Below are positions 15,310 to 39,211 of a stretch of 64,000 nt of DNA, piece by piece (the first letter of the stretch is position 1; each line of letters starts with the position of its first letter). The DNA lies in assembly GCA_002725995.1 (NCBI GenBank), contig PBRQ01000013.1, forward strand, positions 9,854-73,853, read 5' to 3'. The position numbers and the translations under genes are program-made. The notes under the pieces are model-generated. The model was not told the origin of the DNA and did no database searches. It worked only from the letters and a program-made list of their open reading frames with translations. The stretch comes from Gammaproteobacteria bacterium (lineage in GTDB: Bacteria > Pseudomonadota > Gammaproteobacteria > Pseudomonadales > Azotimanducaceae).

Positions 15310-16260
15310 ATGCCAATTACCATCCAAGACGGACTTCCTGCTACGGATGTATTGCAGCGCGAGAACATTTTTTGCATATCGAGCAGCCGGGCTGAGCATC
15401 AGGACATCCGTCCCATGCGAATACTGCTTCTCAACCTGATGCCGAAAAAAATAGAAACGGAGATCCACCTGCTGCGCATGCTCTCGAATACACCACTGCA
15501 GGTGCACATTGACCTAATGCGAATCGATGACAGGCCTTCAAAGAATACCCCTATTGAGCATATGGAGACTTTTTATAAGAACTTCGCTGCAATCAGGGAT
15601 TCCAAATTCGATGGCATGATCATCACGGGAGCGCCGCTTGGTCAGGTTGATTTTGCTGACGTCCACTTCATGGATGCCATGAAGGAAATCCTGGACTGGA
15701 GTACGGAAAACGTTACCTCAACCATGTTTTTATGCTGGGCAGCCCAGGCTGCCATTTATCACCTATATGGTGTGGAGAAACACGTCCTGCCGAAAAAAAT
15801 ATCCGGGGTTTACCCACATCGGCTGGTTAACCCCCTGTCCCCAATTATTCGTGGTTTCGATGATATTTTTGATGCACCTCACTCACGATACGCCGAGATC
15901 CGTAAAGGCGATATTGAGCAGGTTTCTGAACTGGAGATCATTGCGGATTCAGAAATCGCAGGGGCTTATATCTTTGTGCACAGGGAAGGTAAGCACGTTT
16001 TCGTTACCGGCCACTCGGAATATGAACCCCTGTGCCTCAAGGATGAATATGAGCGAGATTTAAGGGCAGGTTCTAGGCCTGATGTGCCTGAAAACTACTT
16101 CCCCGGGGATGATCCAGATGCCGATCCTATCGTTACCTGGAAAAGCCACGGCAATCTGCTATTTTCCAACTGGATTAATCACTACGTTTATCAACTTACC
16201 CCATTCGAAGAAGCTGAAATTGGTAATATTCGTACAAATTCTCCTATGCAAGGAAGATAA
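15310..16260 (+). CDS. metA: Homoserine O-succinyltransferase MetA
   Basis: Acylates homoserine in the first committed step of methionine synthesis. The 316 residues match the family (E. coli 309). The catalytic cysteine is C142 in FLCWAAQA, the His-Glu pair is in TGHSEYEP, and the conserved RPMRILLLNLMPKK occurs at the N-terminus. The residue reported to set acyl-donor choice, position 111, is Gly here (TGAPLGQV), which in characterised enzymes goes with succinyl-CoA, whereas Glu goes with acetyl-CoA. GAGGTAAGA precedes the ATG. The upstream 150 bases show no recognisable SAM riboswitch. Confidence 0.96.
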   Translation: MPITIQDGLPATDVLQRENIFCISSSRAEHQDIRPMRILLLNLMPKKIETEIHLLRMLSNTPLQVHIDLMRIDDRPSKNTPIEHMETFYKNFAAIRDSKFDGMIITGAPLGQVDFADVHFMDAMKEILDWSTENVTSTMFLCWAAQAAIYHLYGVEKHVLPKKISGVYPHRLVNPLSPIIRGFDDIFDAPHSRYAEIRKGDIEQVSELEIIADSEIAGAYIFVHREGKHVFVTGHSEYEPLCLKDEYERDLRAGSRPDVPENYFPGDDPDADPIVTWKSHGNLLFSNWINHYVYQLTPFEEAEIGNIRTNSPMQGR

Positions 16261-37255: not shown

Positions 37256-38386
37256 GTGGCGTTCCTATATTTGGACAAAACACCGTTGGACAAACATTTC
37301 ATTCAACAGATCCATGATGCAGATGGCAAGATTATACTCGCCATTACCGGTGGTGGTGCGTCCAGTGTGACAAAACTACTTGCCGTACCTGGGGCTTCAA
37401 GCACAGTGCTGTCAGCCTTTATCCCTTACCACGATGAAGAACTCGCTACATATCTGGGGGGAAAGCCTGAAACAGCCTGCAGCAGTAGAACGGCGCGAGC
37501 AATGGCCATGGTGGCATGGCAGCGGGCTCAACAACTGGAACTTGAGGTCCCTGTGTTTGGTGTCGGCTGCACTGCGGCACTGGCTACTAACCGGGACCGG
37601 CGTGGAGCAGATCGTTGTTTCATTGCAATTCAGTCTGTGGAACTGACAGCCGAAATTGCTGTTATCTTCGATAAGTCTGGCAGAAGCCGGGAGGAGGAAG
37701 AGCATTTGTGCAGTACGCTTATCCTGGGGTTTATCGCAGAAATACTCGGTATTGAGGTTGAATACCCTGCTGAACTGCGGGACACGGATACGATCACGCG
37801 CAACAAAAAAATCGCTGAGCCTGCGTGGCAAGATATTTACAGCGGCCTGGCGAGCGTTGCTCCCAGTGGCATCATACCGGAGCTGATTTTCCCTGGTGCG
37901 TTTAACCCGATGCACCAGGGTCACCGGCAAATGGTTGAGTACGCTCAAAAACAGTTGGCTAAACCCGTGACCCTGGAGATATCCGTCACCAATGTAGAAA
38001 AGCCCCCCCTCGACTTCATCGAGTTACAATCCCGATGTGAGGCATTGCAGGATTGCCCAATGGTGTTTTCCAATGCACCGACTTTTGTTGAGAAATGCCG
38101 GTTATTTTCTGGAGCAATATTCCTAGTTGGTATTGACACTCTCGTGCGAATAGCAGCGCCGAAATACTATGGCTTAAGCGAAGAGAAACGAGACCAGGCT
38201 TTGCAGGAAATAAGCAGTCTGGGCAACCAGTTTTTAGTCTTTGGCAGGCAGACAGCCAAAGGTTTTGAGACCCTCGATGATCAGGATATTCCCAGGGTAC
38301 TGGCGGAGCTATGCATCGGTGTCAATGAGGATGATTTCAGGGAAGACATTTCGTCGACGGATATTCGTGCAGGTGAAAGTGACTGA
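37256..38386 (+). CDS. CinA-like / nucleotidylyltransferase fusion
   Basis: A 376-residue two-domain protein starting at GTG 37256. Residues 15-170 follow the CinA C-terminal fold (LAITGGGAS, LAVPGASSTVLSAFIPYHD, CSSRTARAMAM), but the serine of the usual ESCTGG amidase motif is replaced (AITGGG). Residues 208-376 form an NMN/NaMN-adenylyltransferase-like domain with the nucleotide motif FPGAFNPMHQGH (212-223) and ISSTDIR (365-371). Similar fusions occur in other bacteria and eukaryotes without a proven function. A step in NAD or another nucleotide cofactor pathway is inferred. Confidence 0.78.
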   Translation: MAFLYLDKTPLDKHFIQQIHDADGKIILAITGGGASSVTKLLAVPGASSTVLSAFIPYHDEELATYLGGKPETACSSRTARAMAMVAWQRAQQLELEVPVFGVGCTAALATNRDRRGADRCFIAIQSVELTAEIAVIFDKSGRSREEEEHLCSTLILGFIAEILGIEVEYPAELRDTDTITRNKKIAEPAWQDIYSGLASVAPSGIIPELIFPGAFNPMHQGHRQMVEYAQKQLAKPVTLEISVTNVEKPPLDFIELQSRCEALQDCPMVFSNAPTFVEKCRLFSGAIFLVGIDTLVRIAAPKYYGLSEEKRDQALQEISSLGNQFLVFGRQTAKGFETLDDQDIPRVLAELCIGVNEDDFREDISSTDIRAGESD

Positions 38387-38584: not shown

Positions 38585-39211
38585 ATGAGTGAACCAATAC
38601 TGTTAGAGATATTTTCTGACTACGTCTGACCCTGGTGTTATCTCAGTACAGTTAGTATTGAAAAGCTCAAGCAGGAACATAATGTAGAGACCCGCTGGAT
38701 TCATTTTCCGCTGCACCCCGAGACTCCCGAGGAGGGCCAGTCAATAGAGGATATGTTCAGGCACAGAGCTGATGTAGATATATCTGCCATGCGTGAGAAT
38801 ATGCGCTCCCGTATGGAAGAGGCCGGGCTGCCCTATGGCAACCGCGGCATGATTTACAACAGCCGCTTGGCCCAGGAACTGGGAGTCTGGGCTGACACCC
38901 AGCAGAGTACTGATGATATTCATGACCTTTTATTCAGGGCTTACTTTGTCGAGAACCAGAATATCAGTGATGTCGAGGTCCTGCTAAAACTGGCTGGTAA
39001 AGCGGGTCTGGATCAGGTGGAAGCAAGGAAAGTTCTGCAAGAAAGGACATTCAGCCCCCGGCTTGACGAGGATTGGGCGCGCTCGCGGCAGGCCGGCATA
39101 ATGAGTGTACCAACATTTTCAAGTCGTGAACTATATGTCGTCGGTTGTCAGCCCTACGAACTCCTGGAGCGCTTCGTGAACCACCTGAATGAACTAAGCG
39201 CAGGGAACTAG
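38585..39211 (+). CDS. FrnE/DsbA-family oxidoreductase with in-frame TGA (candidate selenoprotein)
   Basis: Read through one TGA (38627-38629), the frame encodes 208 residues, the size of FrnE-type DsbA-family thiol oxidoreductases. The N-terminus MSEPILLEIFSDYV-U-PWCYLS has TGA exactly at the first cysteine of the CPWC redox motif (residue 15), and the rest is intact: FPLHPETPEEG, FRAYFVENQNISD, and the cis-proline region GIMSVPTF. The only other candidate start after the TGA (38753) would delete the active site. A SECIS-like hairpin follows the TGA. Selenocysteine is therefore the favoured reading; a nonsense mutation is the alternative, and no selABCD gene is in the window. It is convergent with a frameshifted gene, overlapping by four bases. 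Confidence 0.75.
38643..38661 (+). promoter_or_regulatory. Candidate bacterial SECIS hairpin
   Basis: TCAGTAC (38643-38649) pairs with GTATTGA (38655-38661), seven pairs including one G-U, closing a five-base loop AGTTA with G as its second base. The loop starts 21 bases after the TGA at 38627-38629 (20 bases between). A stem of at least four pairs, a small loop with G among its first two bases, and 16-37 bases of spacing are the features known for bacterial SECIS elements read by SelB. The hairpin lies inside the coding region, as expected in bacteria. Confidence 0.55.

Follow-up and report, generated by a model that had tools for sequence, protein, structure and literature searches.

In a 64,000-nucleotide stretch of gammaproteobacterial DNA (the window), we identified a gene that is very probably a bacterial selenoprotein gene, with the UGA at codon 15 read as selenocysteine (Sec) in an FrnE-type thiol:disulfide oxidoreductase of the DsbA fold. 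Its frame runs from an ATG at 38585 to a TAG at 39209–39211 and specifies 208 residues when the TGA, the sole internal stop, is counted as a residue. A sequence-only reading of the same DNA had described a frame that was otherwise open from ATG to TAG over 208 codons, with one in-frame TGA at the first Cys of CPWC, and had proposed a Sec-containing thiol oxidoreductase. No second stop was found, tblastn alignment confirmed the position of the TGA, and the proposal is supported by a conserved TGA, a covarying hairpin, the presence of selA, selB and selC, and purifying selection. The gene comprises the following features:

38585..39211 (+): probable selenoprotein gene for an FrnE/DsbA-type thiol oxidoreductase, 208 residues, UPWC active site (homology, PF01323, predicted model).
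38627..38629 (+): in-frame TGA, residue 15, probably read as selenocysteine where homologues have the first Cys of CPWC (homologue alignment).
38636..38638 (+): TGT codon of Cys18, the partner of residue 15 in UPWC (Cys in 108/108 alignment rows).
38643..38661 (+): SECIS-like hairpin within the coding sequence, 7-bp stem 38643–38649/38655–38661 (pairing conservation, covariation).
38650–38654 (+): hairpin loop AGUUA, starting 20 nt after the UGA.
39110..39112 (+): codon of Pro176, within a VPT motif corresponding to the thioredoxin-fold cis-Pro loop (Pro in 108/108 rows; the cis state is presumed from the family).

The protein contains a DSBA-like thioredoxin domain (PF01323, E = 9e-27 in Pfam), and the one NCBIfam match is weak, at 39 bits where the cut-off is 190. 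Its best sequence match in the PDB is FrnE from D. radiodurans (E = 5e-21). A predicted model generated from 20 sequences (pLDDT 93) is also closest to D. radiodurans FrnE (Z 27.3, 207 residues aligned, rmsd 1.9); FrnE matches overall scored Z 26–27, followed by SCO1869 (25.1) and 2in3 (21.4), with kappa GST and HCCA isomerases lower at about 20 and proteins named DsbA at about 14–16. By both sequence match and model, the protein groups with FrnE and is closer to it than to periplasmic DsbA, HCCA isomerase or kappa GST. Residue 15 is located just ahead of the first helix (16–32) in the model and, besides this position, the only Cys residues of the protein are 18 and 188. A scan of the window for in-frame TGA codons with a redox-like neighbour yielded 79 candidates, this gene included.

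We propose that SelB and Sec-tRNA(UCA) would decode the codon-15 UGA as selenocysteine, with the hairpin just 3′ of the UGA in the mRNA directing insertion. The product would carry a Sec-Pro-Trp-Cys active site, in which Sec15, where the active-site helix begins, would act as the attacking nucleophile and Cys18 would resolve the mixed selenenylsulfide. Actual insertion of Sec at residue 15 is inferred, as are the catalytic roles of Sec15 and Cys18, the reaction direction and the substrates. The enzyme is probably cytoplasmic, with no signal peptide visible by eye, and by analogy with D. radiodurans FrnE one might guess at a role in thiol and metal stress.

The TGA is shared by relatives. Using tblastn, we aligned 111 loci (31 from whole genomes and 80 from genome_contigs), in which the codon is TGA in 21 (19 once two duplicate pairs are collapsed), TGC or TGT in 89 and AGC in 1, a distant paralogue from the genome studied here. 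Among 58 genomes, the one studied here included, 39 gave matches at E = 0.001; the codon is TGA at all 19 places with E < 1e-50, in 18 genomes, and the weaker matches are paralogues that are mostly stop-free, three of them listing a TGA. Across 206 genomes of the family, searched at E ≤ 1e-26, the gene was found in 53 genomes at 55 places, one of which is a fragment ending short of the codon. The remaining 54 were all read, giving TGA at 53 and TGC at 1. This single Cys version, the only one found in the family (L227, G457:C5:59052-59672), lies in a genome that still has selB. Relatives carry TGA rather than Cys at this codon. The sequence-only reading had named a Cys codon in homologues of the same species, with other lesions in this copy, as evidence that would count against it; no Cys version was found in the genus, where all four other genomes searched have TGA. 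A further stop was seen, in a listing or alignment, in two family copies, G023:C242 and L220.

In a class sample drawn from a larger group, 0 of 368 other genomes matched at E = 1e-40 among the matches listed, and a plasmid collection gave matches only under 60% identity. A scan of named genomes, in which 80 of 117 loci were kept, returned 3 TGA rows (two labelled Gammaproteobacteria bacterium, which duplicate congeners, and one Pseudomonadales bin) and 77 Cys rows, which are largely alphaproteobacterial, with gammaproteobacterial, desulfobacterial and Chloroflexota members; since the six scan patterns included DYVCPWCY, favouring Cys copies, the Cys rows cannot be taken as frequencies. On a quick tree built from 73 rows, two Sec/Cys changes are required, with the deep forks poorly supported.

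We compared the hairpin with a bSECIS model that describes a loop of 3–9 nt, a stem of 4–16 bp, a distance of 16–37 nt from the UGA and a G within the first two loop bases (PMC13188914). The geometry agrees with these terms throughout (5-nt loop, 7 bp, 20 nt, G as the second loop base). According to the model, most SECIS elements form an N1-N2 loop pair (PMC13188914); here it is unformed, the two bases being A-A. Taken by itself, the folding energy does not stand out (z = −0.46 for the 60-nt fold and −0.83 for 38 nt); the 38-nt hairpin, at −6.3 kcal/mol, falls short of the model limit of −7.5, and the 60-nt fold gives −11.7.

The hairpin is conserved. Across the 53 TGA copies (50 distinct), 99.4% of cells are paired, falling to 26–42% when the partner is slid by 1 to 3 positions. 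The 6-bp core stem is complete in 52 of the 53, compared with 0.56 on average and at most 4 of 53 in a null of 2,000 synonymous recodings encoding the same peptides. At two stem pairs both bases have changed (A-U to U-A and G-C, and U-A to C-G), amounting to six and two cells, where cells count sequences and not events. The covariation score of the stem was reached by 0 of 500 shuffles; further pair types in the stem were not above shuffles (198 of 500). Of 66 Cys homologues that are 40% or more identical, 1 has the complete core stem, and the family's single Cys copy keeps 1 of the 6 stem pairs. In addition, the stem codons are nearly invariant in 19 TGA copies, with a normalised codon entropy of 0.15 (5 codons) versus 0.82 (105 codons; Mann-Whitney p = 3e-4).

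Purifying selection acts on codons 35–208, for which dN/dS is 0.096/0.567 against the nearest relative, and 0.171/1.342 and 0.174/1.416 against two further congeners; dS was saturated in four further comparisons. These results bear on two rejected alternatives, each of which we regard as very improbable. The first is that the gene is a pseudogene, its TGA being a nonsense mutation or a sequencing error in a Cys-type frnE. A fresh lesion does look like a single in-frame stop, the genome is a draft of 102 contigs, and a relative provides a comparable case, a paralogue with TGA at the Trp of CPWC. Against this, the same codon is TGA in 53 of the 54 covering places, a sharing that already refutes a lesion, selection has preserved the remainder of the frame and the hairpin behind the TGA has been maintained. 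The second, no more probable than the first, holds that the UGA is a true stop and that translation starts internally to give a shorter protein, such as the 152-residue frame beginning at 38753. Such a frame with an ATG exists, yet homologues show protein-level conservation of the stretch from the UGA to 38753, including PWCYL and FPLHPETP, 89 aligned loci carry Cys at the TGA position, and a product missing strand 1 and the first helix would have no active site.

Returning to decoding of the UGA as Sec, we searched for the machinery in the genome itself, a 3.24-Mb draft that is 87% complete with 2% contamination. The genes selB (E = 9e-134) and selA (E = 3e-178) are adjacent on contig C11, and the SelB shares 91% identity with its counterpart in the nearest congener. 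Contig C28 starts inside a tRNA-Sec gene, of which 79 of about 94 nt are present; these 79 nt are identical to the nearest congener's gene and have CTTCAAA around the anticodon, and the flanking sequence is common to the tRNA-Sec contigs of four congeners. Absence of tRNA-Sec was considered on first seeing seven sub-threshold matches and was rejected: six are ordinary tRNAs according to ARAGORN, and the seventh, at the end of C28, is the truncated gene. Sub-threshold matches of this kind also arise in 14 of 14 control genomes. In some Gammaproteobacteria, selC lies inside or beside selB (PMC13188914), an arrangement that was looked for here and not found. Of the sel genes named in the sequence-only reading as a check, selA, selB and selC (cut by the contig end) are present, whereas a selD search of the bin (87% complete) found none, its one match scoring 54.7 bits against a cut-off of 125. 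All 4 of 4 congeners have a selD that passes this threshold, which in one of them contains an in-frame TGA, and selB was found in 3 of 4.

More widely, selB passes in 36, tRNA-Sec in 37 and selD in 44 of the 58 genomes, and a selB match is present in 163 of the 206 family genomes (161 over the cut-off). In the family, selB is no commoner in genomes with the TGA gene (42/52) than in those without the gene (120/153; Fisher p = 0.84), and it was not found in 10 TGA genomes, congener G002 among them. As selB is as common without the gene as with it, the co-occurrence shows only that this lineage decodes Sec. Genome-wide reassignment of UGA to another amino acid such as Trp, although in principle compatible with an in-frame UGA in a conserved gene, is the least credible alternative and can practically be set aside, given that the neighbouring gene (37256–38386) terminates with TGA, Trp17 beside the site is encoded by TGG, homologues have Cys and not Trp at the codon, and selA, selB and tRNA-Sec are in the genome.

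Some further observations concern the sel genes themselves. A second selA is present in the same genome (G000) on contig C49 (L020, 6931–8409; E = 6e-160), adjoining genes read as mreC/rodA/rng/nuoB-like in sequence of 54.6% GC versus 50.6%; C49 is perhaps a contaminant contig, or otherwise carries a second Sec synthase. A selD with one in-frame TGA was seen at L108 (G003), L109 (G022), L110 (G015) and L111 (G006), and in many other relatives SelD lies within a frame of about 720–780 residues, possibly a fusion to another domain.

The family also contains paralogues of the gene. Two distant DsbA-like loci, L245 (G004:C72:22463-23050) and L246 (G031:C18:19352-19933), have TGA at the first Cys (UPWC) and are 27 and 23% identical to the Sec-FrnE protein, respectively, so that the family seems to hold two Sec-DsbA subfamilies. 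The paralogue with TGA at the Trp of CPWC (L244, G039:C20:3672-4292) is a Cys-type FrnE-like gene, and its TGA is more likely a lesion or a sequencing error than Sec. In the genome studied here, a DSBA-domain paralogue (L024, G000:C48:4630-5148) has Ser at the catalytic Cys position; we take its SPWT motif to resemble that of 2-hydroxychromene-2-carboxylate isomerases.

The Sec gene follows, in order, genes for a pyridine nucleotide-disulphide oxidoreductase, a NamZ muramidase, Iso_dh, DUF3806 and a cytidylyltransferase-like protein. This six-gene order, with the Sec gene last, is also present in G001, G004 and G033, is partly kept in G003 and G006, whose contigs are shorter, and was not found in 18 kb around the G014 copy; in other members the inspection covered about 1.5 kb to either side. 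By our own reading, the first of these genes encodes a glutathione reductase, and the neighbourhood offers a weak lead towards a link with the glutathione system. Elsewhere in the window, a SAM-II riboswitch (SAM_alpha, RF00521; 15072–15148 (+), 44.9 bits against a gathering threshold of 36) lies upstream of a homoserine O-succinyltransferase gene (ORF 15310–16260) in this gammaproteobacterial genome.

Residue 188 varies among the 53 TGA copies, in which it is Cys (20), Ala (16), one of six other residues (16) or a gap (1), and Cys is found there in 0 of 89 Cys homologues. The position lies just before the C-terminal helix. In D. radiodurans FrnE, a C-terminal CXXXXC is thought to serve regeneration (PMC8945050), a motif that this protein lacks. 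The motif is found in many but not all FrnE proteins and is also absent from the name-giving FrnE of S. roseofulvus; it is therefore not defining for the group. One could speculate that the family, having kept Sec-FrnE nearly always (53/54) with its own covarying SECIS, uses Cys188 as a second resolving thiol replacing the CXXXXC, an idea we consider doubtful. Against it, Cys188 is also present in the one Cys copy of the family, and its distribution may thus reflect lineage instead of Sec.

If the UGA is taken as a stop, a 152-residue frame without the active site is left, and the enzyme is thus easily missed. Within one enzyme family, the 53 TGA copies can be compared cleanly, Sec against Cys, with their Cys homologues and with a Cys copy whose genome still has selB, with the covariation of the SECIS directly visible in the family copies. 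The finding opens no new kind of biology. Whether Sec-FrnE had already been described, which the sequence-only reading could not tell for this lineage, can be answered: it has, in bacteria, algae and marine invertebrates, also under the name Sec-DsbA. A DsbA-like UXXC family of nine sequences under COG2761 was predicted as bacterial selenoproteins in 2005 (PMC1088965), a ‘DsbA 1’ selenoprotein family was later given 63 sequences (PMC2398784), and Sec-DsbA-like proteins were reported in 41 organisms (PMC5029168), with reviews also listing a bacterial Sec-DsbA-like family (PMC9312934, PMC13188914). COG2761 is the COG of D. radiodurans frnE, DR0659 (PMC1978522). In eukaryotes, a Sec-containing FrnE has been named for Mamiellophyceae algae (PMC6627142), SelenoDB 2.0 calls the family FrnE (DsbA) (PMC3965025), and Sec-DsbA is known from sea squirts, amphioxus and other marine invertebrates, the sea squirt protein having Sec in place of the upstream Cys of CXXC (PMC2874816, PMC3473315). 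In the bacterial selenoprotein papers examined for it, the name FrnE does not occur, and a literature search covering listings and selected passages found no paper naming Sec-FrnE of this gammaproteobacterial lineage. Because Sec-DsbA-like/FrnE proteins are already in print, the gene is a well-supported addition to a known kind rather than a new kind, by which an uncultured gammaproteobacterium joins the bacteria, algae and marine animals that have such proteins.

Among known systems, the bacterial DsbA-like UxxC family (PF01323/COG2761) likewise consists of DSBA-domain proteins whose UxxC opens with Sec, and the published COG2761 selenoproteins are, by their description, likely the same subgroup. 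D. radiodurans FrnE (DR_0659; PDB 5cnw, 5coh and others) has the same CPWC position but with Cys instead of Sec. The algal and invertebrate Sec-FrnE (DsbA) proteins share the family name and are likened by description alone; they are eukaryotic, with the SECIS in the 3′ UTR, whereas the hairpin here is within the coding sequence. Bacterial Sec decoding (SelA, SelB, tRNA-Sec and an in-frame SECIS) involves the same genes and a hairpin directly behind the UGA. Many bacterial SECIS elements are unlike those of E. coli (PMC13188914), and the hairpin described here has a sequence of its own.
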